A stretch of 37,671 bases of DNA, taken from Okeania sp. SIO2C9. Lineage in GTDB: Bacteria > Cyanobacteriota > Cyanobacteriia > Cyanobacteriales > Microcoleaceae. The DNA is taken from the NCBI RefSeq assembly GCF_010672455.1, contig NZ_JAAHGO010000070.1, forward strand, positions 1-37,671, read 5' to 3'. The stretch's first letter is position 1. Each line of letters starts with the position of its first letter. The position numbers and the translations under genes were made by a program. Under the pieces are notes generated by a model. That model ran no database searches, was not told the origin of the DNA, and saw only the letters and a program-made list of their open reading frames with translations. Shown here piece by piece: positions 12,904 through 35,398 of this stretch.

Positions 12904-14073
12904 ATGGCTAAGAATTTACTCGAACAATTACGAGAAGTAACCATCGTTGTTGCGGATACAGGCGATATTCAAGCAATTGAAAAATTTCAACCACGGGATG
13001 CTACTACTAATCCCTCATTAATTACTGCTGCAGCTCAGATGCCACAGTATCAGGAAATTGTGGATGAAACCTTGAAAAAAGCAAGGGGAGAGTTGGGAAC
13101 AGATGCAACTCCTTCTGATGTGGCAAATTTAGCATTTAAGAGACTAGCAGTTGCTTTTGGACTCAAGATTTTACAGATTATTCCAGGGCGAGTATCTACA
13201 GAAGTTGACGCACGACTATCCTACGATACAGAATCAACAATAGCTCAAGGACGAGATTTAATCGCTCAATATGAAGCAGCAGGAGTTTCTCGCGATCGCA
13301 TCTTGATTAAAATCGCTTCTACCTGGGAAGGTATCAAGGCCGCCGAAGTGTTAGAAAAAGAGGGTATTCACTGCAACTTAACCCTACTATTTGGTCTGCA
13401 TCAAGCGATCGCCTGTGCTGAAGCTGGCGCAACTCTGATTTCTCCTTTTGTAGGTAGAATATTAGACTGGTACAAAAAGGAAACTGGGCGAGACTCTTAT
13501 CCTCCTGCGGAAGACCCCGGTGTATTATCTGTGACTCAAGTCTACAACTACTACAAGAAATTTGGTTACAAGACTGAAGTCATGGGAGCTAGTTTCCGCA
13601 ACATTGGTGAAATCACAGAATTAGCAGGTTGCGACTTGTTGACTATTTCACCTGGTTTGTTGGGTGAGCTAGAATCAACTACAGGGGACCTACCGACGAA
13701 ACTTTCTGTGGAGAAAGCGGCTGAGTCTGATGCCGAAAAAATTGCCTTAGACAAAGAGACATTTGATAAGATGCACGCTGAAAACCGGATGGCATCTCAA
13801 AAACTGGATGAAGGCATTAAAGGTTTCTCTAAAGCATTAGAATCATTGGAAAATCTGTTAGCAGAACGCTTGACTCGTCTAGAGGGAGTCACTCATGCAG
13901 CAGAAGATATTTTCCATATTTATGACCTAGATGGTGATGGTTTCATCACTCGTGAAGAGTGGGCAGGAACTGATGCTGTATTTGATGCTCTAGATATCAA
14001 TCAGGATGGTAAAATTTCTCCAGAGGAAATGGCGTCTGGTTTAGGAGCTGTGTTCCAATTAGCTAAGGTTTAA
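12904..14073 (+). CDS. tal: Transaldolase with C-terminal EF-hand pair
   Basis: A 389-residue protein; ordinary transaldolases are about 315-335 residues. Residues 1 to about 325 form the transaldolase: DATTNPSLI at 32-40, the Schiff-base lysine in [11 protein letters not shown] (Lys136), CNLTLLF and [12 protein letters not shown]. It transfers a dihydroxyacetone unit between sugar phosphates in the pentose phosphate pathway. Residues 335-389 add two canonical EF-hand loops, [12 protein letters not shown] (341-352) and [12 protein letters not shown] (364-375), suggesting calcium binding; regulation by calcium is inference. This transaldolase/EF-hand fusion is a known family in some cyanobacteria. 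A GGAG at 12894-12897 precedes the ATG by 6 bp. Confidence 0.96.
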
Positions 14074-14706: not shown

Positions 14707-14773
14707 TATATCATGTCCGTTTCATAGCGCTATCAAAAACTGTCTTCTTCTCCTCTTGCCGGACATGATATTA
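14707..14773. repeat. Short TATCATGTCCGG-family element overlapping a stop codon
   Basis: TATATCATGTCCG (14707-14719) and CCGGACATGATATTA (14759-14773) are inverted ends only about 40 bp apart. The terminal TTA at 14771-14773 is read as the TAA stop of the minus-strand protease gene. The stem could also serve as a transcript end for that gene. Confidence 0.7.
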
Positions 14774-16465
14774 CTTTCTTTTACGCTTTAGCAAAGAAAA
14801 TGCTCCAAAAACAGTACCAAATAATCCTATTGTTGTAGTGGGTTCTGGTGTGACAGCACTGGCAGTAAGCGTCACATTATCAACTGAAAGACCAGACAAA
14901 AATCCGAATTCATCTGCATCTGTAACTCCAAACCCTAAAGTATAAATTCCAGTTTCAGGAATCTCGAACGAAAAATTTTGATATCCTGTTTCTTTATCGA
15001 AGGCAGTTGGAGAATCAACAAATGTACTGGAGAAAACATCTGCTAATATTTCTAAGAAAGGATCGTCTAATACATCACTGGAAAGAGAGACAAAAGAAAA
15101 GTCATTTAAAGGATCGAAATCAAATTCTGGAGCTAGCAATTCATCTGTCAAAAAGTTGAAATCAAATGTTAAAATATCTCCTGCTTTTGCCTCAAAAGTT
15201 TGCTTGAGCGCAGATCCTTGAGTAACGAATTCAACGTCTGGTGATAAATCTGTTAGACTTTCTGGAGCTAACCCTAAGAATTCTTCAACCTCATCAGCAG
15301 GGACAGCAAGTGTATCGTTAATAATTAACCCTTTATAATCACCCTCTGGGAGTGGAGTACTAGCGTTACGACCCTGTCTCTGTTGTATAGTAGTAGCACC
15401 GATAAAACTCCAATCATCGAAACCATCATCAAAATTACCATTCTTGATTCCATATACAGGTTTAGGTTCAGGTGTGGGAGTAGGTGCAGGTTCAGGGACA
15501 AAATCACCAACAAACTCACCACCAAAATCTTCTATAAATTCGCGATGTTCTAAAACTCCAGTAAACCAGGAGATATCACCAAATTCACTGGTGTCATTCG
15601 TACCCCCAGAAAGAACTCCTGCAATCAATAATTCCCCACCTACTTCTACCAGAAGAGGACTACCACTATCTCCACCAGCAGTAGTACCTTCATTTTTGAG
15701 TGGCGAAGAACTACTACCAAAACTGGATAAAGTGTTATTGTCATCAGCTCCATCATCAAAGTCAAGGTTGAAAATGTTTGAGCCAAAGGTATCATTAAAT
15801 GCTGGGTCAAAACCGCCATCAAACAGATCGATTGTATTTTCAGCAGCCCAACGCAAGCCATCTGCAGTAAAGTCATGGCCGACACTGCCTAAACCATTGA
15901 AACCGAAACCAACTACACTTGCATCACTGCCAATGAAGTCTTCAGGGTTGTAACCAAATAGCTTTAAAGGATCGATTGAGTCTGGAGCAGCTTCCTCCAG
16001 TTCAAGTATAGCGATATCTGTACCATCCAATAGACCAAAGGTATCATCTTGAAAGATGTCAGTTACGGCAATATCTGCTAAAACACTGTTTTCAGGATCG
16101 TTACTGCGAAATAGTACACTAAAGTCTTCGGGGAAAAAATCCTGAACACAATGTTGGGCAGTAAGTATATAATTACTTGCAATCAGCGATCCAGTACAAG
16201 CACTTTCAAATTCATCTGTGTCAAGATTTAGTGATAAAATCTCGGTGACAGATGTAAAAGGAGCACCCAAGGCTTGAGCAGTGCTTGCTCCCGCAGTATC
16301 ATTTATTACTATACTTCTTACTGATGTTTGAATGCTCTGGCTAGCCACTAAACTAAGTATGCAACTAAGCCCTATTTTGCTCGTTTTTTTCATTTTAAAA
16401 AATTTGAGTATGGAATGATTGAATCTTGCTTTTAGTTTGTCATTGTTTGATAAGTAAATATGCAT
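14771..16465 (-). CDS. Secreted trypsin-like serine protease with PEP-CTERM anchor
   Basis: A 564-residue protein. The S1-type triad is visible: ILTAQHC with His105, GTDIAIL with Asp150 and GGDSGSP with Ser267; Cys90 and Cys106 could pair. A proline-rich linker (PEPAPTPTPEPKP) near residue 330 leads to a second domain of about 200 residues ending in a PEP-CTERM signal: PEP at 540-542, a hydrophobic stretch, then LLKRKRK. PEP-CTERM proteins are processed by exosortase for surface delivery. The hydrophobic signal segment starts after MKKTSKIGLS at residue 25; that Met would be a classical start, but the upstream ATG has a strong GGAGGA 8 bp before it, so the longer start is kept. The substrate is unknown. 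Confidence 0.88.
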   Translation of the reverse strand: MHIYLSNNDKLKARFNHSILKFFKMKKTSKIGLSCILSLVASQSIQTSVRSIVINDTAGASTAQALGAPFTSVTEILSLNLDTDEFESACTGSLIASNYILTAQHCVQDFFPEDFSVLFRSNDPENSVLADIAVTDIFQDDTFGLLDGTDIAILELEEAAPDSIDPLKLFGYNPEDFIGSDASVVGFGFNGLGSVGHDFTADGLRWAAENTIDLFDGGFDPAFNDTFGSNIFNLDFDDGADDNNTLSSFGSSSSPLKNEGTTAGGDSGSPLLVEVGGELLIAGVLSGGTNDTSEFGDISWFTGVLEHREFIEDFGGEFVGDFVPEPAPTPTPEPKPVYGIKNGNFDDGFDDWSFIGATTIQQRQGRNASTPLPEGDYKGLIINDTLAVPADEVEEFLGLAPESLTDLSPDVEFVTQGSALKQTFEAKAGDILTFDFNFLTDELLAPEFDFDPLNDFSFVSLSSDVLDDPFLEILADVFSSTFVDSPTAFDKETGYQNFSFEIPETGIYTLGFGVTDADEFGFLSGLSVDNVTLTASAVTPEPTTTIGLFGTVFGAFSLLKRKRK

Positions 16466-22682: not shown

Positions 22683-23420
22683 ATGGACAATCAAGACCTC
22701 AATCAACTCAATATTCAGCCAATGGAAGAAAGTCCTTTAGATCATTTAGGAGAAGATCCCCCAAAACCAGATCCAGAGGAAATGTTGCCATTGCTAACTT
22801 CTTCAGAACCCTCCCAAAGGATGATTGCAGCGCGAGCTTTCTGTGAACTCCAGGAAAAACGGGCTATTATTCCATTAATTAAATTATTAGAAGATGATTG
22901 TCCATTAATACGAGTGAGTGCTGCTTATGCTTTGGGCCGTAATCCTAGCCCAGATGCAGTAGAACCTCTAATTACACAATTGAATAGGGACTTCAATGGC
23001 TATGTCCGTAAAGGAGTGGTTTGGGCCTTGGGAAATTGTTGCGATCGCCGTGCTTTGGAACCTTTAGTTGATGTCCTCAGAACAGATATTTCTGCAGTGC
23101 GTTTATGGGCAGCAAGTTCTCTTGGGCAGATGGCCAAAGTAAGTTATGAAGTGGTAGTAGGGGCAATACCACCATTAATTGAAGGTTTGCGACGAGACTC
23201 AATGCCAGCAGTTAGGAGTAATTGTGCATGGGCCATTGGTCAATTATGTCGAGAATTACCTTCTAATGTGGTCTATGCAGGTGGAATTGATGCCTTAATT
23301 GAAGCATTAGAAGAGGAGCAAGATATGGGAGTGCGGGAAGATGCTAAATCATCTTTGTTACGAGTAGGAGACCCCAGAGGTCTGCAAGTTATTGAAGATT
23401 TAGCAATGGAAGGGCTTTAA
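22683..23420 (+). CDS. HEAT-repeat (PBS-lyase-like) protein
   Basis: A 245-residue protein built of about five HEAT-like alpha-helical repeats, for example RVSAAYALGRNPSPDAVEPL, VRKGVVWALGNCCDRRALEPL, VRLWAASSLGQ, VRSNCAWAIGQL and VREDAKSSLLRVGDPRGL. This repeat type occurs in phycobilin lyases (CpcE/CpcF-like) and in many scaffold proteins. Without phycobiliprotein neighbours, a lyase role is not supported. The N-terminal 40 residues are acidic and proline-rich. It is probably a protein-protein scaffold; function unknown. Confidence 0.88.
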   Translation: MDNQDLNQLNIQPMEESPLDHLGEDPPKPDPEEMLPLLTSSEPSQRMIAARAFCELQEKRAIIPLIKLLEDDCPLIRVSAAYALGRNPSPDAVEPLITQLNRDFNGYVRKGVVWALGNCCDRRALEPLVDVLRTDISAVRLWAASSLGQMAKVSYEVVVGAIPPLIEGLRRDSMPAVRSNCAWAIGQLCRELPSNVVYAGGIDALIEALEEEQDMGVREDAKSSLLRVGDPRGLQVIEDLAMEGL

Positions 23421-24136: not shown

Positions 24137-24338
24137 TTACGTCTTGACATCCTCCCGACGCTGCTCTACGAGACAGCGCGGGATTCCTAACCATCGCGCT
24201 CTTAGTTCTTTCTGCTTCAATGCACCAGCCTCCAAGGTCAAGCCTCTTTTCGGTCTAAAGGCGCGCTCCACAGACTGACACTGCTAGCCCAGCAGCCTTT
24301 TTTAAGTCTAACACACTATTGGCATGCGCCGCAAAATT
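24137..24338 (-). pseudogene. TnpB C-terminal fossil (IS200/IS605-type)
   Basis: On the minus strand two frames join into a TnpB-like C-terminus: NSVLDLKKAAGLAVSVCGA (upper part, to about 24268), then after a frameshift near 24256-24268 RPKRGLTLEAGALKQKELRA... to a TAA at 24137-24139. The CG(A)xxRP...EAGALKQ pattern is what I recall from tails of cyanobacterial TnpB proteins; this is recognition from memory, not a search. Everything upstream (nuclease domain, zinc finger) is missing. The sequence may also hold the transposon right end and an omega-RNA remnant. Confidence 0.55.
24154..24182 (+). repeat. Imperfect hairpin repeat, IS end, copy 1
   Basis: CCCGACGCTG...CAGCGCGGG forms a stem with a 10-nt loop; an identical 29-bp copy is at 24352-24380. 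Such subterminal hairpins are typical of IS200/IS605 ends. Confidence 0.6.
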
Positions 24339-24351
24339 GATTGGTTTTCAT

Positions 24352-24380
24352 CCCGACGCTGCTCTACGAGACAGCGCGGG
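24352..24380 (+). repeat. Imperfect hairpin repeat, IS end, copy 2
   Basis: Identical to 24154-24182. It lies 72 bp upstream of the first DUF4157 gene, at the point where the upstream homology between the three DUF4157 genes stops. Confidence 0.6.
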
Positions 24381-24412: not shown

Positions 24413-24451
24413 GCTTAAAATTAGTATAGCAATTAAATAGAGCAGTCGGTT

Positions 24452-26266
24452 ATGATTAAAACTTCACTCAACAGAGCCACATCTTCATACCAACCCTTGA
24501 CAAAGGATAAAAGAAAAGCCAGTTTTCCAAAAACAGAACAACCAGTACAACCAAACAGAGAATATACCTCACCCGAAACTCTTGAATTACAGGGATACAA
24601 GCAGCCTAAGGTAGGGGCAATGATAGAAAATGTGATGGCTGCACAACTTGCGGGTATGAGCGATCGGCCTTCAACGAAAGATGAGGACTTTGGAAATCAA
24701 TTAAGAGTACCTCGCCCAGATAAGTTAGGTAGTATGAGCATCCAGCCAAAGCTAACTGTAGGACGACCCCCTACATTCAATGAAGGGGAGTTGGGAAATC
24801 AATTAAGAGCACCTCGCCCAGATAAGTTAGGTAGTATGGTCATCCAACCGAAGTTAACTGTAGGACGACCCCCTTCAAGGAATGTAGGGGAGTTGGGAAA
24901 TCAATTAAGAGCACCTCGCCCATTTAAGTTAGGTAGTATGACCATCCAGCCGAAGTTAACTATAGGAGAATCTAATGATGCTTACGAGCAGGAGGCGGAT
25001 CGGGTAGCTAGTAGGGTGGTAGATGAAATTAATGCCCCTGCACCAATACAACGTCAAACAGGGGAAGAAGAGTTACAGAGGGAACCCCAGTTAAGTGCCA
25101 TTAAGCTCCAAGGAAAGACAGGAGAGAAGGATTTAGGGTATAGTCCAAAAAAGCCGATAGTGCAATGGAAAGGGATAGAAGAGGGTGTGTTATTGAGAAG
25201 AGCTGCGGTAAACAGAATGAATGGGTACAGAGGTGGGGAAGCGACTGGGGACTTGGAATCATCAATCAATAGTGCACGCGGGAGTGGGCAACCGTTAGAT
25301 CAGGGCTTGCAGGAAAAGATGGGGCAGGCGATGGGGGCAGATTTTAGTGGGGTACGGGTGCATACCGATGCCCAGTCTGATCAGTTGAATCAATCTATAC
25401 AGGCGAAGGCGTTTACCACGGGGCAGGATGTGTTTTTTCGCCAGGGGGCGTATGAGCCTTCGAGTCGGGGGGGGCAGGAGTTGATTGCCCATGAGTTGAC
25501 CCATGTGGTGCAGCAGAATGGGGTCGCGGTGCAACGCAAGAGCCATTCCGAGGTAGAAACTACCGGGGATTTATCATCAGCGATAACCTCTATCCAGGAG
25601 TCGGTAAGCACAGGCGATCGCTCGAAGGAAGATTCATTACCACCAATACATAGGAAAGAAGCAACAACCCTAACCCAACGAAGGTTAAGAAGATTACAAC
25701 ACACAAGTAATATTTTAGTGGGACGTACCAGTGTTGCGCATACGATTCAACGGGGAAAAATGGCTATGGGCGAGGATCCACCGATTAAGGAAGGGACAAA
25801 ACTTTTGAATGAAGACACCGTTACTGTTAATTCTTTTGATGAGCAAAAAAAGAAGGGGGGCAAACGTCTTCACCTAGTCTCTCATATAGAAGCAGACGGG
25901 AAATTTGGAGGTTATACTTCCCAAGAAATGGCCGATGCAATGTTGCAAGCTCATCTGTTTGATGGTAAAACAACCACAAGTACAATAAAACTCCATGGAT
26001 GCAATTCGGCACCATTTGCGCAAGCGTTGGCGAATGCATTGGATGGAAATACAGGATACCTTACAGTATCAGTTATAGGAAGCAACGGACTAAATGTGAC
26101 AAAACCAAATGGAGAATCAGTTGTTCTAGATCCAGCAAAATGTGGAGGTGGAAGTACAGAAGACCAATGGAATTATTGGTCTAAAAAAGCGGACTCTTTG
26201 ACGAAAGAGCGATGGCTACAGGAGGTTGGAAAGCACTTACATTCCAACCCGTGGACGACGTACTGA
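24452..26266 (+). CDS. DUF4157 protein with C80-like cysteine peptidase candidate (eCIS cargo type)
   Basis: A 604-residue modular protein. Residues 1-80 are a leader shared with the next two genes; then three 34-residue repeats ([20 protein letters not shown] and variants, 82-183), the third continuing into [15 protein letters not shown], the usual start of DUF4157 proteins. DUF4157 spans about 275-356 and carries HELTH (347-351), an HExxH zinc-peptidase-like motif. The C-terminal domain (about 460-604) has LHLVSHIEADGKFGG (His478) and IKLHGCNSA (Cys517), a His/Cys order and spacing like clan-CD peptidases such as C80 (MARTX autoprotease). DUF4157 proteins are frequent cargo of contractile injection systems; effector status here is inference. 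The stop is followed by palindromic repeats. Confidence 0.85.
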   Translation: MIKTSLNRATSSYQPLTKDKRKASFPKTEQPVQPNREYTSPETLELQGYKQPKVGAMIENVMAAQLAGMSDRPSTKDEDFGNQLRVPRPDKLGSMSIQPKLTVGRPPTFNEGELGNQLRAPRPDKLGSMVIQPKLTVGRPPSRNVGELGNQLRAPRPFKLGSMTIQPKLTIGESNDAYEQEADRVASRVVDEINAPAPIQRQTGEEELQREPQLSAIKLQGKTGEKDLGYSPKKPIVQWKGIEEGVLLRRAAVNRMNGYRGGEATGDLESSINSARGSGQPLDQGLQEKMGQAMGADFSGVRVHTDAQSDQLNQSIQAKAFTTGQDVFFRQGAYEPSSRGGQELIAHELTHVVQQNGVAVQRKSHSEVETTGDLSSAITSIQESVSTGDRSKEDSLPPIHRKEATTLTQRRLRRLQHTSNILVGRTSVAHTIQRGKMAMGEDPPIKEGTKLLNEDTVTVNSFDEQKKKGGKRLHLVSHIEADGKFGGYTSQEMADAMLQAHLFDGKTTTSTIKLHGCNSAPFAQALANALDGNTGYLTVSVIGSNGLNVTKPNGESVVLDPAKCGGGSTEDQWNYWSKKADSLTKERWLQEVGKHLHSNPWTTY

Positions 26267-26307
26267 TCGGAGCTTGACCCCCGATATAGTGCGCTCGCCT
26301 GTAGTTG

Positions 26308-26360
26308 CGATCGCCGTTCTTGTAGGTTGGGTTGACGCAAGGAAACCCAACAATTTATCC
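26308..26360. repeat. HIP1-linked palindrome (GCGATCGC...GGTTGGGTTGACG)
   Basis: GCGATCGCCGTTCTTGTAGG leads into GTTGGGTTGACGCAAGGAAA and CCCAAC, a hairpin repeated at 33556-33602. The 26267-26797 spacer also holds a TGTAGGACGCG...GCCTTCATTAATATTAAC block (26658-26700) like those at 28993 and 32653. No gene is seen in it. Confidence 0.6.
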
Positions 26361-26729
26361 CAATTCTCCAAACAACCGAAACAAAAAAAAATCAACCCTT
26401 ATTCGCTTATTATTGGTTATTTGGGTTGGTTATCTGATAGGGTGTTGGGTTGCACGATCTTTAACCCTACCTAGTGGACTGTTTCATCTAAAGTAGTGTA
26501 TTAGAATTGTCATTGCGAACGATAGTGAAGCAATCTCTAGTAGATTTCCGATTGCATCATTTTAGTTGAAACGGTTCATTAGGGTGCATTAACGGAATGT
26601 AACACTCCGACCCAACCCCTAATACTACGACTCTATAATAATCAGTGCGATCGCTATTGTAGGACGCGAAATGTAACGTGCCTTCATTAATATTAACATT
26701 CGGTGCGTGACGCCAAAGCTAACACTTAG

Positions 26730-26758
26730 TTGACAACTTACGTCATTACCCTTATTAT
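26730..26758 (+). promoter_or_regulatory. Sigma-70-type promoter of the second DUF4157 gene
   Basis: TTGACA (26730-26735) and TATTAT (26753-26758) are separated by exactly 17 bp, placing the start site about 33 nt before the ATG at 26798. The block is conserved upstream of the third gene. Confidence 0.65.
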
Positions 26759-26797
26759 GCTTAAATTTAGTATAGCAATTAAATAGAGCAGTCTGTT

Positions 26798-28936
26798 ATG
26801 ACCAAAACTTCACTCAACAAAGCCACATCTTCATACCAACCGTTGACAAAGGATAAAGGAAAAGCTAGTTTTCCTAAAACAGAACAACCAGTACAAGCAA
26901 ACAGAGAATATACCTCACCCGAAACTCTTGAATTACAGGGATACAAACAGCCCAAGGTAGGGGCAATGATAGAGAATGTGATGGCTGCACAACTTGCGGG
27001 TATGAGCGATCGGCCTTCAACGAAAGATGAGGACTTTGGAAATCAATTAACAGCACCTCGCCCAGATAAGTTAGGTAATATGGTCATCCAGCCGAAGTTA
27101 ACTGTAGGACGACCCCCTTCAAGGAGTGTAGGGGAGTTGGGAAATCAATTAAGAGCACCTCGCCCAGATAAGTTAGGTAGTATGGTCATCCAACCGAAGT
27201 TAACTGTAGGACGACCCCCTTCAAGGAGTGTAGGGGAATTGGGAAATCAATTAAGAGCACCTCGCCCATCTAAGTTAGGTAGCATGAGCATCCAGCCAAA
27301 GTTAACTGTAGGACGACCCTCTTCATTATTGGAATCTGCGATCGCAAAGGAGCAGGTATCGGAAACAGAAGGTGGGAGCGAAACGCAGTTGCAAGCAGAT
27401 AGCTCTCAAGAAACTTCCTCAGCACCCATCCAAGCAAAAGTTGCAGAAACAGCGAACAAAACAGGTTTACCAGATAGCCTCAAAGCGGGCATTGAAAACC
27501 TCTCTGGTTATTCGATGGATGATGTGAAAGTGCATTACAATTCAGAGAAACCAAGTCAATTACAGGCACATGCTTATGCACAAGGAACAGATATTCATGT
27601 TGCTCCAGGACAAGAAAAACATTTGCCCCATGAAGCTTGGCATGTGGTGCAACAGAAACAAGGAAGAGTGAAGCCAACGATGCAACTGGAAAGCAAAGTG
27701 AATGTGAATAATGATGCTGAGTTGGAGAAAGAAGCGGATGTCATGGGTGGAAAGGCAATGATTGCCAACACATCCGAAAAGAATAACAAAAGTGCCGTAA
27801 ATCATTTAGAAAGAATGATTAATCCAAAACGTGATTATCATTTTAAAAGTAATACAGCACAATTGGGCAAACACACATTTACAAAGAAACAACAACAATA
27901 TTTTCAAAAAGCAAAAAAAATAGGGGTAGTGAAGAATTATCATCTTGGACATAAAAGCAAAAAAGTATCAAGAACTTTTAATGGGTTAAAAGACGAGTTT
28001 AAAATGCTGTTGCAGATAAAAGATCCCAAATTAAGCAAGAAAATCTCCGACGCTGATAAGAAATTCAAAGATTTACTTAAAGAATATGATGTTGTCTTAG
28101 AACCCTATAATGATAGTGGCGATCTACTGTTCACAAGAACCGAACAAAGAAATGCAGTAGAAGATGCAGAAATGTCGGATGGTTTTACGACCACAAAATT
28201 TCAAGAACAAGCAGGTGAGTTTATTCTGGGCACAATTCGGAACGAATTACAACCGGTTTATGACAGTGGCAATGATGAATTAATGGGTTTAGTGGAAGGG
28301 AGTGGTACTATTCATTGGTCTCACAATATAGATTTGAAGGCATATTCAAAAATTACTACTCCGTCTACAGTTCCGACTAAAACAGGTCCTTGGAATTGTG
28401 GTGCTATTAATCCCCTTACAGGTACAGCTAAAACTACCAATATTACAATTGTTAATCATACAGGTCCTAACGATCCGGAGGATTTGAAGGATATGCAAAA
28501 ATGGAAATCAAAAGGTATCTTAACCGATCCTAAGTCAGGCCATACGTTAACAAAAATGCATCAAATTCGAGCGCGTTTTGGGGGGCCTGGTGACAAAAGA
28601 AATATGTTTCTCGGAACACCTTTAAGTAACAATCATCATTTAAAATCTCACAATGCTGTTGTAGAGAGCAAAATAGATACTGCACTTGCGATTAAGGGCT
28701 ACAAATCTAATTGGGTTGAGTATAAAGTAAAACCTGGTTTTGGTACGATTGCAAATCACGTTCAAAGTAAAATCAATAGTAAGCTAACAGGTAAGGATAA
28801 AACCGATGCTGAAGCTTGGTGTAAAGAGGCTACACCTGCCAAGTATGACACTGAGTGGACTCATTACTTAACCGATGCTAGTAATGTAACTATATCAAAA
28901 ACATACAAAGATCGTCTTGATGCGGACATAACTTAA
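26798..28936 (+). CDS. DUF4157 protein with C-terminal nuclease candidate (eCIS cargo type)
   Basis: A 712-residue protein. Its first 170 residues nearly equal those of the neighbouring DUF4157 genes: the leader [20 protein letters not shown], then three 34-residue repeats. It carries a short-form DUF4157 (about 223-296: TGLPDSLKAGIENLSG, VKVHYNSEKP, HEAWH at 278-282, GRVKPTMQ). The long unmatched middle is lysine-rich. Near the end, GHTLTKMHQIRARFGGPGD, NMFLGT and SNNHH (581-613) give a His, then GG, then two Asn arrangement resembling non-specific endonucleases of the beta-beta-alpha-metal type; a nuclease toxin is a candidate only. It has its own promoter and starts 531 bp after the first gene's stop. 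Confidence 0.85.
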   Translation: MTKTSLNKATSSYQPLTKDKGKASFPKTEQPVQANREYTSPETLELQGYKQPKVGAMIENVMAAQLAGMSDRPSTKDEDFGNQLTAPRPDKLGNMVIQPKLTVGRPPSRSVGELGNQLRAPRPDKLGSMVIQPKLTVGRPPSRSVGELGNQLRAPRPSKLGSMSIQPKLTVGRPSSLLESAIAKEQVSETEGGSETQLQADSSQETSSAPIQAKVAETANKTGLPDSLKAGIENLSGYSMDDVKVHYNSEKPSQLQAHAYAQGTDIHVAPGQEKHLPHEAWHVVQQKQGRVKPTMQLESKVNVNNDAELEKEADVMGGKAMIANTSEKNNKSAVNHLERMINPKRDYHFKSNTAQLGKHTFTKKQQQYFQKAKKIGVVKNYHLGHKSKKVSRTFNGLKDEFKMLLQIKDPKLSKKISDADKKFKDLLKEYDVVLEPYNDSGDLLFTRTEQRNAVEDAEMSDGFTTTKFQEQAGEFILGTIRNELQPVYDSGNDELMGLVEGSGTIHWSHNIDLKAYSKITTPSTVPTKTGPWNCGAINPLTGTAKTTNITIVNHTGPNDPEDLKDMQKWKSKGILTDPKSGHTLTKMHQIRARFGGPGDKRNMFLGTPLSNNHHLKSHNAVVESKIDTALAIKGYKSNWVEYKVKPGFGTIANHVQSKINSKLTGKDKTDAEAWCKEATPAKYDTEWTHYLTDASNVTISKTYKDRLDADIT

Positions 28937-29062
28937 TTGATGCTAGTAATGTTAAGTATGTCAGTGTGATGCCGAGTTATAGCGATCGCTCTTGTAGGGT
29001 GCGTACATTTCGCACTTTCTTAATATTAACTTTCGGTGTCTGACGTTAAGGCTAACACTTAG

Positions 29063-29091
29063 TTGACAACTTAGGTCATAACTGTTATAAT
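29063..29091 (+). promoter_or_regulatory. Consensus sigma-70 promoter of the third DUF4157 gene
   Basis: TTGACA (29063-29068) and TATAAT (29086-29091), a perfect consensus with 17-bp spacing, 39 bp before the ATG at 29131. The preceding GGCTAACACTTAG and the following AGTATAACAATTAAATAGAG are shared with the second gene. Confidence 0.75.
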
Positions 29092-29130
29092 AATTAGATT
29101 TAGTATAACAATTAAATAGAGCAGTCGGTT

Positions 29131-32100
29131 ATGATTAAAACTTCACTCAACAGAGCCGCATCTTCATACCAACCGTTGACAAAGGATAAAGGAAAAGCCA
29201 GTTTTCCTAAAACAGAACAACCAGTACAACCAAACAGAGAATATACTTCACCCGAAACTCTTGAATTACAGGGATACAAGCAGCCCAAGCTAGGGGCAAT
29301 GGTAGAGAATGTGATGGCTGCACAACTTGCGGGTATGAGCGATCGACCTTCAACGAAGGATGAAGACTTTGGAAATCAATTAAGAGCACCTCGCCCAGAT
29401 AAGTTAGGTAGTATGGTCATCCAGCCGAAGTTTACTGTAGGACGACCCCCTTCAAGGAGTGTAGGGGAGTTGGGAAATCAATTAAGAGCACCTCGTCCAG
29501 ATAAGTTAGGTAGTATGAGCATCCAGCCGAAGTTAACTGTAGGTGAACCTAATGATGCCTATGAGCAGGAAGCGGATAGGGTAGCCAGGAGGGTGGTTGA
29601 TGAAATTAATGCCCCTGCATCGGTACAACGTCACACAGGTGATGAAGAGATACAAATGAAACCCCACTCAAGTGCCATCCAGCTCGAAAGAATGACAGGA
29701 GTTAGGGATTTTGGGTTTAGTCCCAAAGTGTCGATGGTGCAAAGGGAAGGGATGGAAGAGGGTGTGTTATTTAGAAGGGCAGTGGTAAACAGAATGGATG
29801 GGTACGCAGGAGGAGATGCGACTGGGGAGTTGGAAACAGCAATTGAAGGTGCGCGGGGAAGTGGGCAACATTTAGATCCGGGCTGGCAGGCGAAAATGGG
29901 GCAGGCGATGGGTGCGGATTTTAGTGGGGTGCGGGTGCATACGGATAGTCAGTCGGATCGGTTGAATCAATCAATTCAGGCGAAGGCGTTTACGACGGGG
30001 CAGGATGTGTTTTTTCGGCAGGGGGCTTATGAGCCTGGGATCCGAGGGGGGCAGGAGTTGATTGCCCATGAGTTGACCCATGTAGTGCAGCAGAATGGGG
30101 GGGTGGTGCAGCGGCAGAGCGATCTCGAAGAAGAGGAACCCTTGCAAGGCAAATTCGCCACCGATGTGATGCCGACTCAGCTCCAGACCACCGGCGCACC
30201 GGTTGAAAACCGCACTGGGATTCCAGATTCGTTGAAGGTGGGATTGGAACAGCTCTCAGGTCTGGACATGTCGGGTGTGCGTGTACATTACAACTCTGCC
30301 AAACCGGCACAACTTAACGCCCTCGCTTATACGCAAGGCCAGAACATTGAGGTGGGGCCGGGGCAAGAGCGTCATCTGCCCCATGAAGGGTGGCACGTGG
30401 TGCAGCAGATGCAGGGGCGAGTGAAGCCCACGATGCAGACCAAAGGGATGTCGATTAACGATGATGCGGCTTTGGAGTGCGAAGCGGATGTGTTTGGGCA
30501 GAAGGCTGCCGGTGATCGGTTTGTAGCTCGATCTCCTGCGGAACGCCGAGACGGAACAAACAAAAGCGGTTCGCAAATCCAATCTACACATGCCACTGAG
30601 GTATCCCCGCAGCCGCACGCTAGCGGAGTTGGCGGGGGTCACCGAAGCGTCATACAACGGCTTATCGAAATCGGCGAAGAGTCTCTCTCCGCGGCTCAAA
30701 TAAAACCGCGTCTTCAGTCGCCCCTCCGGCTTGAGAGACGGAACGAGGCGGGTAAGATCCCAAAAATCGACCTGTTTAACGCTGGCATTCTTGATGGCGT
30801 ACTGCCGGTTTATGACAAGCAGAACCGCCAATTTAATGACTGGATAGAGTTCGCACAAGCGATGAGTGTCATTGTCGAACCCTACTGGCTGCTGTGGAAT
30901 GTCGGAAGCAACGCCGCTGAGATCGTCAATAACCAGAAGAAGGTTCAGGCGTTGATTGTCAACAACCGCCCCGCCTTCTCCAGCTTGGTGACCACCCTGG
31001 GCTTCGAGCACGAGTTCGCCCAGATGAAGAACGGTCCCCTGCGCGGAGTCTCACACCTCGAGCTTACCCGTAGCAAAGAAACCTTACCGCTGACCAACCT
31101 CCCCTGGATCCTTGAAACTGACGCTGAAAGCACGCTGGAACTAGTCAGTCCGCCCTTTGCAGTCCCAACCGTGGGCGGTCGCCCCATGCCACATGCCGAT
31201 GTGGTTAATAAAATGGACAATATTTTGAAGACGGGGCTCGTCGGGGCTGTGAAGGGAATTACCGGCTGGATGAACTGGGGTAAGCTCCCGGAGCTGGTGA
31301 GTTCCCTCAACACTGCCCTTGGGATTGAATTCCAATCACTCCAGGAGCTGTCCATCGGGCCGGAGAACCTCTCGGCGAAGACCCAGCTAGACGAACTGCC
31401 TGGTCCTGCGATCACGGCTGGAAGACTAGGTGAAATCGAGGTTGGAGCGAGCAATAAGCACTCGGGAGGTATGGACTCGCAGATCAATTTCGCCGCCGAC
31501 ATCGAGACGCTAGATATGATTCAGGACCTCGGAAAAGGTTTGGCCGATAAATCGACCCAGATTCTGAAACGTATTGAGCGGAAGCTAGCCGAGGCCATGC
31601 CCGTGCCGAAAGATGCGTCAGGAGAACTTGCTAAGTTCTATCCCCTCCTCCACCGCAAGCTAGCTGGTTTATTCGCGATCCAGTCTCAGGCCAAAGTACG
31701 CGATTGGCAGAAGCAGGCCTATTCTTACCTCGCCGCCAAGCAGACAGAAGAGACAGTCGTTCAGCCACCGACTCCGCAAGACTTCGACTTCGACATGGAC
31801 GCTCTCCTGAGCAGTGTAGTCAAGGATGTCTCGCCTCTCTGGGTGAAGGATCATCTGGTCAGCCTGGCTAAAGGCATGTTGACGGAGGATGATCTTGCAG
31901 TTCTGGCTGATGATCTCAAAAAACATCTGAATCTTTCGCTCGATGTAGGTGTGAGGAAGAGCAAAACCGTGGGTATAGCAGAAGGCTTCGAAAAGCTCCT
32001 GGAAGAGCGACTCGATCAGTTTAATGCTGATCTGAAGCAAGCCATCAAGGTGCTCTATAGCTCCTTAAGTGAGAGAGACTTCACTAAAGCTGACGAACGC

Positions 32101-32283
32101 GCCGCGTCTGGGTTCCTTGAGCACGATCCTCAGTTCATTGGCGCACGCCAAGACACCTACCTGAATCCGAGCCATGTCCAGCAGGAAGGTCTTTGGAGCG
32201 GGCGACGCCTCCACGTAGCCGAGATCCGCAAGGGCAATGTAGGAATCCTCAGCGAGGGAAATCGTCGAGCCACAGAAGGATGA
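29131..32283 (+). CDS. Double-DUF4157 protein with C-terminal amidoligase-like candidate (eCIS cargo type)
   Basis: A 1050-residue protein. Shared leader (1-80), two 34-residue repeats, [18 protein letters not shown], then a long-form DUF4157 (about 245-325, HELTH at 313-317) followed by a short-form DUF4157 (about 362-436, HEGWH at 418-422). Residues about 500-1050 form a different C-terminal part: LGFEHEF (623-629) and [15 protein letters not shown] (662-676) resemble the glutamate-binding and core motifs of the glutamate-cysteine-ligase/amidoligase fold (GFExEF...DxSxxxElvSPp). From about 30,100 on, base composition is clearly richer in G+C than the neighbours, suggesting acquisition of the C-terminal module from elsewhere. 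Toxin or modifying function is inference. Confidence 0.85.
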
Positions 32284-33084: not shown

Positions 33085-33297
33085 ATGATGAAGGAAACCA
33101 ACAAATTAAAAGAGATAGAAAAAGCAATTAGCCAGTTGTCCCCCCAAGATTTAACCGAATTTCGTCGATGGTTTGCTGAATTTGACGCAGAAGCATGGGA
33201 TCAACAATTTGAAACCGATGTAACCACAGGTAAGCTAGATGGGTTAGCAGAAAAAGCGTTAAAACACTTACGAGAAGGAAACTGCACGGACTTGTGA
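33085..33297 (+). CDS. Antitoxin-like small protein (type II TA pair)
   Basis: A 70-residue protein, acidic, rich in helices, with SQLSPQDLTEFRRWFAEFDAEAWDQQ and a C-terminal GKLDGLAEKALKHL. This pattern is common in cyanobacterial antitoxins placed directly before RelE/ParE-like toxins. A second Met follows the first, so the true start may be 33088. Its TGA overlaps the GTG start of the next gene (33294-33297), implying translational coupling. Expected role: bind and neutralise the toxin and repress the pair. Confidence 0.8.
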   Translation: MMKETNKLKEIEKAISQLSPQDLTEFRRWFAEFDAEAWDQQFETDVTTGKLDGLAEKALKHLREGNCTDL

Positions 33298-33551
33298 AAC
33301 ATCGAGCAACCCCTGATTTTTGGTATTATTATCGACAATTGCCCCCCCATATTCAAGACCTTGCCGATAAATGTTATGATTTATTAAAACAAGATCCCTA
33401 TTATCCTTCATTACATTTTAAGAAAGTAGGTCGTTTTTGGACGGTTCGGATTGGGATACATTACAGAGCTATTGCAGTGGGAGATGGACAAGAAATGGCA
33501 TGGTTTTGGATAGGACATCATGCAGAATATGACAAAATATTAGGAAAATAA
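33294..33551 (+). CDS. RelE/ParE-superfamily toxin
   Basis: An 85-residue protein with the usual RelE/ParE core: FWYYYRQLPPHIQDLADKCYDLLKQDPYYPSLHFKKVG, then WTVRIGIHYRAIAV and a final WFWIGHHAEYDKIL. This family cleaves ribosome-bound mRNA (RelE) or poisons gyrase (ParE); which applies is not decided. The start is GTG inside the antitoxin's stop region (four-base overlap). The downstream sequence is an HIP1-linked palindrome. A complete, probably functional pair. Confidence 0.85.
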   Translation: MKHRATPDFWYYYRQLPPHIQDLADKCYDLLKQDPYYPSLHFKKVGRFWTVRIGIHYRAIAVGDGQEMAWFWIGHHAEYDKILGK

Positions 33552-33778: not shown

Positions 33779-35398
33779 ATGCCAAGTTATGAAGTTTCCT
33801 CTCAATTTCTTACTCCTCAAAGTTTCCTAGAACGCAGTCTAGCAGCATTTCACGACAAAGATGCTATAGTTTACCGCTCCTCTCGCTGGACTTATGCGCA
33901 GGTTGCCGCTAGAGTTAATCAACTGGCAAATGCCTTAAAAAATAGAGGTTTACAAAAAGGCGATCGCGTAGCTTTCCTTTGCCCGAATATTCCACCGATG
34001 CTAGAAGCACATTTTGGCGTTCCTTTAGCAGGAGGAGTTTTAGTCGCCATTAATATTCGATTAGCTGCTAAGGATATTTCTTACATCCTCAATAACTGTG
34101 GAGCGCGTCTATTATTTGTCGATACAGAATTATCTCATCTGGTAGCATCGGTGCAGGATGAGTTGGAAAGTGTAGAGGAAATTATCAATATAGTAGACAC
34201 TGAAATAGAAACAACAGGAGAAAAATTACCAGGAACAGACTATGAAACCTTTTTAACTACAGGTAGCTCAGACCCGATAATATCGACACTCACGGAGGAA
34301 AACGAACCAATTTCTATCAGCTACACCAGTGGCACCAGCGGTCAACCAAAAGGAGTAGTATATACTCACCGTGGTGCTTATCTCAATGCTTTAGGTATGG
34401 CATTAGAATTAGGAATGAATAACCGCAGTGTCTATTTGTGGACTTTACCCATGTTTCACTGCAATGGTTGGTGTTTTCCTTGGGGAGTCATTGCTGTGGG
34501 TGGTACTCATGTTTGTCTCCGAAAATTTTACCCCAGTACAGTAATTTCATTAATCATGGATGAGGGAGTGACTAACTTCTGTGCTTCTCCCACAATATTA
34601 ATAATGCTTACCAAGGAGCATCAAGTAATCAATAAATTACAACTTTCCCATACCGTTACAGTTGTTACTGGAGGTGCACCACCTTCCCCAACTCTGATTC
34701 AGAAAATGGAAGAGTTGGGAATTGAATTGATTCATGGTTACGGTTTAACTGAAACTTATGGTCCTCATTCTATCTGCGAATGGCAAGCACCATGGAATGA
34801 GTTATCACTTGCCGAACGCGCTCGTTTGAAAGCTAGACAGGGAGTTGCTTGTATTCATTCTTCTCAGATGCGGGTAGTAGATAAGGATATGCAGGATGTA
34901 CCTACTGATGGGGAAACTATGGGAGAAGTTGTGATGCGCGGCAATAATGTGATGCAGGGATATTTTAACGATCCAGAGGCGACTGAGTGGGCGTTTCGGG
35001 GTGGTTGGTTTCATAGTGGAGATTTGGCCGTGATGTATCCTGATGGTTATATGGAATTACGCGATCGCGCTAAGGATATTATTATTAGTAGTGGCACGAA
35101 TATTTCGACTATTGAGGTGGAGAGAGTTATTTATAAACATCCAGCAGTTTTGGAAGTGGCGGTTATTGCTATCCCGGATGAGAAACGAGGTGAAGTGCCG
35201 AAAGCTTTTGTTACTCTCAAGTCTGATGTTAATGTGAAGGCGCAGGAAATTATTGATTTTTGTCGTCAGCATTTAGCGGTTTTTAAGATTCCGAAAGCGG
35301 TTGAATTTATAGAGTTGCCAAAGACTGCTACGGGTAAGGTTCAGAAATATTTGTTGCGGGAGAAAGAGTGGGTCGGTTATGAAAAAAGGATTCACTAG
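33779..35398 (+). CDS. AMP-dependent acyl-CoA ligase (DmdB-like/long-chain type family)
   Basis: A 539-residue adenylate-forming enzyme (ANL superfamily). Motifs: P-loop YTSGTSGQPKGV, HGYGLTETYGPHS, the hinge region GWFHSGDLAVMYPDGYMELRDRAKDIIISSG, and PKTATGKVQKYLLRE carrying the C-terminal catalytic Lys. The N-terminal NIPPMLEAHFGVPLAGGVLVAINIRL block is typical of bacterial acyl-CoA synthetases near the DmdB/acyl-activating-enzyme group. It activates a carboxylic acid with ATP and links it to CoA; the substrate is not known. AAGGAG at 33765-33770 is 8 bp before the ATG. The stop codon TAG is the first TAG of an AGAATTTA tandem array. A close paralogue lies at 36338. Confidence 0.92.
   Translation: MPSYEVSSQFLTPQSFLERSLAAFHDKDAIVYRSSRWTYAQVAARVNQLANALKNRGLQKGDRVAFLCPNIPPMLEAHFGVPLAGGVLVAINIRLAAKDISYILNNCGARLLFVDTELSHLVASVQDELESVEEIINIVDTEIETTGEKLPGTDYETFLTTGSSDPIISTLTEENEPISISYTSGTSGQPKGVVYTHRGAYLNALGMALELGMNNRSVYLWTLPMFHCNGWCFPWGVIAVGGTHVCLRKFYPSTVISLIMDEGVTNFCASPTILIMLTKEHQVINKLQLSHTVTVVTGGAPPSPTLIQKMEELGIELIHGYGLTETYGPHSICEWQAPWNELSLAERARLKARQGVACIHSSQMRVVDKDMQDVPTDGETMGEVVMRGNNVMQGYFNDPEATEWAFRGGWFHSGDLAVMYPDGYMELRDRAKDIIISSGTNISTIEVERVIYKHPAVLEVAVIAIPDEKRGEVPKAFVTLKSDVNVKAQEIIDFCRQHLAVFKIPKAVEFIELPKTATGKVQKYLLREKEWVGYEKRIH

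Follow-up and report, generated by a model that had tools for sequence, protein, structure and literature searches.

The stretch of DNA analysed here (the window) comprises 37,671 nucleotides of Okeania sp. SIO2C9, contig NZ_JAAHGO010000070.1 (contig C286 in our numbering). On its forward strand, as for the other parts of the cassette and its flanking genes, it carries three genes, g1 (24452..26266), g2 (26798..28936) and g3 (29131..32283), whose reading frames are open at these positions and which encode proteins of 604, 712 and 1050 aa. Each protein consists of a shared leader, a set of 34-residue repeats, one or two copies of the domain DUF4157 and a C-terminal tail of its own. We consider it likely, with a probability of about three in four, that these genes form a leader-addressed island of swappable cargo for a single clade of contractile injection systems (CIS).

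The leader spans residues 1 to 70 of each protein (24452..24661 in g1, 26798..27007 in g2 and 29131..29340 in g3). Compared with g1 over approximately 102 residues, the leader of g2 shows 92% identity and that of g3 93%, and blastn pieces covering the 5' modules of the three genes are 91.5-94.1% identical. The repeats follow, with three copies in g1 (24662..24967), three in g2 (27008..27313) and two in g3 (29341..29544), and close with IQPKLTVG or a near variant. PF13699 (DUF4157, in Pfam now eCIS_core) was matched in g1 (E 4e-33), g2 (E 2e-9) and g3 (E 8e-42). The copies lie at 25292..25522 in g1 (118 bits), at 27467..27664 in g2 (41.5 bits, a divergent type) and, in g3, at 29872..30102 (115 bits, g1-like) and 30220..30417 (37 bits, g2-like); all four contain HExxH. 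The second copy of g3 is 57% identical to that of g2 over 126 aa, and the first copy falls within the g1-like part of the protein. The near-identical leader, the IQPKLTVG-type repeats and the DUF4157 with HExxH described in the initial annotation, made from the sequence alone, were therefore all recovered, with the correction that g3 has two copies of DUF4157. In the whole genome five PF13699 matches were found at E ≤0.001, of which the window has four and contig C212 the fifth. The N-terminus is also strongly hydrophilic, with hydropathy sums over the first 50 residues of -63.7, -60.8 and -57.1 in the three window leaders, against a background of 48 ORFs from seven stretches (some counted twice at overlaps) that ranged from -50.4 to 36.4 with a median of -13.75.

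Beyond this common front no relationship among the three proteins was found. Alignments by blastp among the three proteins were confined to the N-terminal parts. At the DNA level a 562-bp piece is 94% identical between g1 and g2, after which the sequences can no longer be aligned by blastn, a juxtaposition that is far beyond chance. The tails themselves (25727..26263 in g1, 27803..28933 in g2 and 30901..32280 in g3) showed no mutual relationship in tail-only blastp or in single-sequence hhalign, and these two tests ruled out the candidate explanation that the three are members of one family. The unrelated C-termini that had been proposed for this cassette were thus borne out.

Sheath, tube and baseplate genes, which the initial annotation had advised looking for elsewhere in the genome, are present on contig C212; neither of the two outcomes that it had named as refuting, a genome devoid of any export cluster and C-termini of one family, was encountered. 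The CIS cluster there encodes an AAA ATPase, Pvc16, four sheath proteins, two gp19-type tube proteins and CIS_tube, a spike, gp25, CIS_spike_tip and a Baseplate_J protein. Its cargo slot, the interval from gp25 to the spike tip, contains a gene for a 1337-aa DUF4157 protein whose leader is homologous to the window leaders (38% identity, E 5.8e-6, using a query built without that leader); the motif Y..PK.GAM..NVM is common to both. As a separate observation, one CIS cluster was seen to hold four sheath genes of unequal size, 556-888 aa (L018:2283-6849; L017:14120-18896), and the clusters of genomes G313 and G285 likewise have four sheath-like ORFs, as judged by their N-termini.

The distribution of the leader was examined using a profile in whose construction the C212 cargo-slot leader was included. 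It was found in 4 of 291 genomes of the order and 6 of 61 genomes of the family, the window's own genome being counted in both. Intact leaders occur in five of the family genomes, all of them with genes of a single CIS clade. G313 and G250 belong to the genus of the window and G285 to another genus; a scan of named genomes gave five leader loci in three Okeania metagenome-assembled genomes and is an undercount, since G084 and G320 were not listed in it. Two leader classes could be distinguished, 27-30% identical (measured against g1) yet alignable: the island class represented in the window, and a class found in CIS cargo slots. Leaders of the latter class lie between gp25 and the spike tip in the window's own genome (one), G250 (three), G285 (two) and G320 (one).

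Pvc16 was used to assign the CIS to clades and was detected in 19 of the 61 family genomes. The Pvc16 proteins of C212, G313 (contig C26), G250 (C178) and G285 (C101) form one clade with support 100/100 and are 78-98% identical to that of the window genome, all other rows being 11-22% identical. The tree covers 20 of 26 Pvc16 places in 16 of the 19 genomes, with G239, G315 and G302 omitted, and its branches between Pvc16 clades are long, so that nothing is concluded from it here beyond how tight the leader clade is. All four Pvc16 genomes with leaders hold one Pvc16 of this clade, and the other 15 have no leader (4/4 versus 0/15, Fisher p 2.6e-4, uncorrected for kinship and with the three omitted genomes treated as other kinds on the strength of their longer frames). 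G313, G250 and G285 each have an additional, second Pvc16 outside the leader clade. G312 and G314, from the same genus as the window, have only another kind of Pvc16 and no leader. G320 gave no Pvc16 match but has a leader gene, and its CIS genes and those of the window genome share 87-95% identity. The CIS of this clade in G313 has just a 109-aa ORF in its cargo slot; by eye this ORF resembles the 3' end of the cargo gene of the window genome, and the island genes are the only leader genes detected in G313.

The leader can also be separated from DUF4157. Three proteins with a leader, G313c, G250c1 and G285c2, gave no PF13699 match at E 0.5; the island encodes one of them and CIS cargo slots the other two. 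G313c carries Endonuclea_NS_2 (E 5e-12), and the tails of G250c1 and G285c2 are alike (74%) and belong to no named family. Because of these three proteins, we regard the leader as the more constant part. The initial idea that a constant module has been copied and fused to new payloads is supported, with the qualification that the constant part is the leader more than DUF4157. A competing explanation keeps DUF4157 as the loading or processing module and regards the leader as common merely through gene duplication with tail replacement. The literature does describe DUF4157 as a marker for proteins of this type (PMC8213781, PMC11297309), and other DUF4157 sets in the family vary, by eye, in their N-termini while DUF4157 is kept. 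The proteins in which a leader stands without DUF4157 argue against this explanation, as does the joint occurrence of leader and CIS clade; the 27-30% identity at which island and CIS-slot leaders can still be aligned indicates, moreover, that the leader predates a recent duplication. On balance we think it unlikely.

The reverse arrangement was found for the tail of g3, whose relatives in G034 and G093, two genomes of the same order and another family (2 of 387 other genomes of the order), stand behind a different N-terminus. The G034 protein has a DUF4157 match (E 5e-9) and the G093 protein a similar HExxH region by eye; judged from sequence, relatives of the tail with a different front mirror the pattern of the window. 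In other family genomes, arrayed DUF4157 genes share distinct N-termini of their own (by eye, with no statistical test), which suggests that a leader followed by a variable tail is a general arrangement and that leaders may be CIS-specific. A second such DUF4157 set is present in G285 and G250 (L102, L110, L111), with an N-terminus that starts MYTYANKTQDNK. A piece like the FQFVDNR motif of this second set lies inside G313a, which by eye resembles a chimera of both sets. In G126 (L104) and in G190, five DUF4157 matches each share a large contig with the Pvc16 gene and are separated from it by more than 1 Mb, so cargo arrays remote from the CIS are present in other genomes of the family too.

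Comparison with relatives places the cassette at a defined chromosomal site with changing contents. In relatives the island is flanked on the left by the HEAT-repeat gene (22683..23420 in the window) and on the right by the AMP-binding enzyme gene (33779..35398). The interval between the two contains three leader genes in the window and four in G313. At the same site G250 has one truncated leader gene followed by two further genes, one MerR/resolvase and one OrfB-type, a pair that we take to be IS607, and G285 has two leader genes beside the HEAT gene, with the AMP-binding side reduced to a 97-bp AMP-binding-like piece. The site is empty in G312, where 182 bp separate the HEAT gene from the AMP-binding gene, and G314 has no leader gene there and a duplicated piece of the AMP-binding gene. 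The flanks of the window and of G313 are nearly the same at the DNA level (acetate kinase 96.3%, HEAT 97.4%), yet no tail matches between them. Among nine island tails, none of the 36 pairs was related by blastp or single-sequence hhalign; among 18 tails, the same tests related 3 of 153 pairs, two between CIS-slot proteins and one between g3 and G034. The same leader with other tails, for which the initial annotation had suggested searching in relatives, was thus found.

In the model that we favor, g1, g2 and g3 would be cargo (effector) genes of the CIS on contig C212. The leader, which is constant, highly hydrophilic and some 70 residues long, would act as an address tag for the loading machinery, and its reader would probably be the AAA ATPase of the CIS, by analogy with Pvc15. 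The 34-residue repeats may serve as a spacer, DUF4157 as a common yet dispensable second module and the tail as the active payload. Since the near-identical leaders and repeats offer a substrate for homologous recombination, leaders could be re-joined to new tails, and genes could be gained and lost at one chromosomal site. We infer the loading, the ATPase recognition, the injection, the toxicity, the recombination route and the target. A broader proposition is put forward more tentatively, at somewhat less than even odds: each cyanobacterial CIS clade may have its own DUF4157-independent leader address, so that cells with multiple injectors would sort payloads by leader, and the HEAT-AMP-binding site would be the payload-recombination island for one clade.

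Several observations weigh against a leader-addressed cargo island. In the sixth family genome, G321, the leader is a broken fragment interrupted by an in-frame stop, and neither Pvc16 nor DUF4157 was matched. The leader also occurs in one protein of G084, a genome from another family than the 61 genomes in which Pvc16 was sought. (That protein, L043:6978-9077, combines DUF4157 with a GGDEF-like tail at E 8e-5, just under the Pfam cut-off.) The co-occurrence of leader and CIS could reflect joint inheritance within two related genera. An aromatic residue among the first eight, a tendency in a published model, is present in none of the three window leaders. Endonuclea_NS_2 is matched by the island tail G313c (E 5e-12) and also by the island tail G285a (E 5e-6, with 27.2 bits against a cut-off of 27), and the island tails are therefore not all independent; a distant superfamily overlooked by single-sequence hhalign may unite some nuclease-like tails (G313c, G285a and, weakly, g2).

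Finally, the island (C286) and the CIS cluster (C212) lie on different contigs. This would also fit a rival reading in which the genes encode polymorphic toxins that are exported otherwise, or that act inside the cell, and are no CIS cargo. Island and CIS are on separate contigs in G250, G313 and G285 as well; the assemblies are fragmented and the CIS cluster nearly reaches the end of C212, so that contig separation is no measure of true distance. A homologous leader inside the CIS cargo slot of four genomes (the window's own, G250, G285 and G320), and its absence from G312 and G314 with their other CIS type, make such a route highly improbable in our judgment.

A further alternative overlaps with the CIS-cargo reading and differs from it only in the target: the cargo would be aimed at the producer or its sister cells, with a role in cell death or development. 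It would be in keeping with the lack of recognisable immunity genes. As the initial annotation had stated, no immunity gene was recognised, here among the 4 of 16 small gap ORFs (at least 25 aa) that were scanned, although unknown immunity families could escape such a scan; the single match, to DUF6888 (E 6.6e-4), was under the cut-off. Roles of this kind have been proposed for other CISs found in multicellular bacteria; for the CIS of Anabaena, which is thylakoid-anchored and has two DUF4157 proteins, a role in ghost cells has been speculated (PMC8894136). On the other side stands the argument that fast turnover of tails suits an arms race better than a fixed developmental role, and we consider self-directed cargo possible but doubtful. 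The absence of immunity-like small ORFs needs a qualification in one respect, since a gene for a ParE-like toxin domain (33294-33551; PF24732, E 1.2e-7) preceded by a small ORF (33085-33297) does lie 0.8-1.3 kb past g3. From sequence, we take the two as a putative toxin-antitoxin-like pair separate from the cassette.

The tails were searched for known activities. The g1 tail has no direct Pfam match. Its homologue in G324 (31% identity, E 9.5e-6) matches Peptidase_C80 (E 1.8e-8) over the aligned stretch, and a three-sequence profile of the g1 tail searched against PDB found MARTX cysteine protease chains (E 0.0044, 0.042 and 0.11). One His and one Cys are invariant in all three rows of the alignment; in C80 a His and a Cys are catalytic. 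The g2 tail weakly resembles DNA/RNA non-specific endonucleases (Endonuclea_NS_2, E 0.037, 14.7 bits against a cut-off of 27), and a search of 291 other genomes gave no relative of it. For the g3 tail no named family was found, and g3 and its two homologues gave no amidoligase match at a limit of E 10, where the HMMER filters drop most matches above about 0.1. The initial tail guesses therefore fared differently: C80-like has support by way of a homologue, nuclease-like stays weak and below the cut-off, and amidoligase-like found no profile match. Elsewhere, one island tail of G285 matches Tox-ART-HYD1 (E 4e-7). Structure models of the g3 tail (three sequences, pLDDT 40.5) and the g2 tail (one sequence, pLDDT 31.6) were too poor for a fold search and were set aside. 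PDB sequence searches with single tails and the g3 profile gave nothing convincing, plasmid searches with the g2 tail, the g3 tail and the leader gave no match, viral contigs searched with the g2 tail and the leader contained no relative, and PHROGs and NCBIfam gave nothing useful for the window proteins.

The similarity of the three genes extends into the upstream DNA. In the final 40 bp 5' of the ATG, 35-38 of 40 positions match among g1, g2 and g3; over 100 bp the matching positions number 84 for g2/g3, 59 for g1/g2 and 55 for g1/g3. In g2 and g3 the conserved stretch is accompanied by a promoter-like pair at -68/-45, TTGACA-17-TATTAT in g2 (26730..26797 together with the conserved stretch) and TTGACA-17-TATAAT in g3 (29063..29130). 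Before g1 the 37 bp preceding the ATG (24415..24451) are conserved, and g1 retains the -10 and the part downstream of it; the shared -35 region is missing. The same promoter, which had been proposed for all three genes, is thus present in two of them. A 29-bp hairpin-like repeat, similar to IS200/IS605 ends, occurs in two copies upstream of g1 (24154..24380; copies at 24154-24182 and 24352-24380), the second of which adjoins the point where the -35 region is lost. A stretch covering this second copy aligns (38 bp, 84%) with DNA of G313, at the 3' end of a TnpB gene from an IS200/IS605-type element. Across ten island genes, 13 of the 37 columns preceding the ATG are identical in all ten and 32 agree in at least eight. 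A TTGACA-17-TATAAT-like pair with at most one mismatch was found in 4 of the 10, namely g2, g3, G313c and G313d; its position is -70/-47 in the last of these and -68/-45 in the others. Further away in the window lie a transaldolase bearing C-terminal EF hands (12904-14073) and a trypsin-like protease (14771-16465) with a weak C-terminal VPDSG/PEP-CTERM match below the cut-off.

This, then, is a real cassette, and its products are most likely cargo for a machine of known kind; the variant seen here parts a probable address tag from DUF4157 and locates that tag in an island of gain and loss. For the question of how a CIS chooses its cargo, a leader that a profile can find, that goes with one clade and that can occur apart from DUF4157 opens the loading signal to direct tests. 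The leader also gives a handle on cargo genes remote from the CIS operon, which surveys based on proximity may miss, and the leader set points to several tails with no named family. No description of this leader was found in the open-licence literature searched, nor of any conserved leader that goes with a single CIS clade, can occur apart from DUF4157 and sits on a gain/loss island; no open-licence paper searched combined 'Okeania' and 'contractile injection'.

DUF4157 with variable C-terminal toxin domains has already been published for extracellular CIS (eCIS), whose associated toxins are described as having DUF4157 on the N-terminal side, a hydrophilic N-terminus and, in many cases, no visible immunity gene; for the filamentous aquatic cyanobacterium Moorena producens, 18 eCIS toxins have been predicted, half of them with DUF4157 (PMC8213781, PMC11297309). 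As a tendency, 88% of eCIS effectors lie within ten genes of the CIS operon, and the 2024 machine-learning survey behind this figure states that it detected no specific conserved signal sequence (PMC11297309). The window genes resemble these toxins in DUF4157, variable tails, hydrophilic N-terminus and a CIS in the genome (PMC8213781, PMC11297309). They differ in being linked by a sequence-conserved leader that also occurs without DUF4157, and in forming an island off the CIS contig.

For PVC, the N-terminal loading signals are 50-70 residues long, disordered and groupable by sequence alignment (PMC11495950, PMC10097599), and they suffice for loading into PVC particles (PMC10097599). For a pair of PVC payloads with the same toxin domain and unlike N-termini, sorting to different particles has been proposed (PMC11495950, PMC10097599). 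The window leader is similar in its N-terminal position, its length class and its alignment groups (PMC11495950, PMC10097599). Unlike the PVC signals it precedes repeats and, usually, DUF4157, and it goes with a cyanobacterial CIS clade.

The thylakoid-anchored CIS of Anabaena is likewise cyanobacterial and has putative DUF4157 effectors, Alr3311 and Alr3312, which were detected by mass spectrometry; ghost-cell formation is one of two speculations offered by its authors (PMC8894136). The genes for Alr3311 and Alr3312 adjoin the CIS cluster, whereas the window island is on another contig than its putative CIS. Sle1-type effectors of actinobacterial CIS are reconfigurable, with a constant platform and diverse functional domains, and share with the window genes this design and the involvement of the CIS effector core domain (PMC13277306). 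In the Sle1 type, however, the platform is related to the tape measure and the core domain resides in a partner protein, whereas the window genes carry DUF4157 themselves (PMC13277306).

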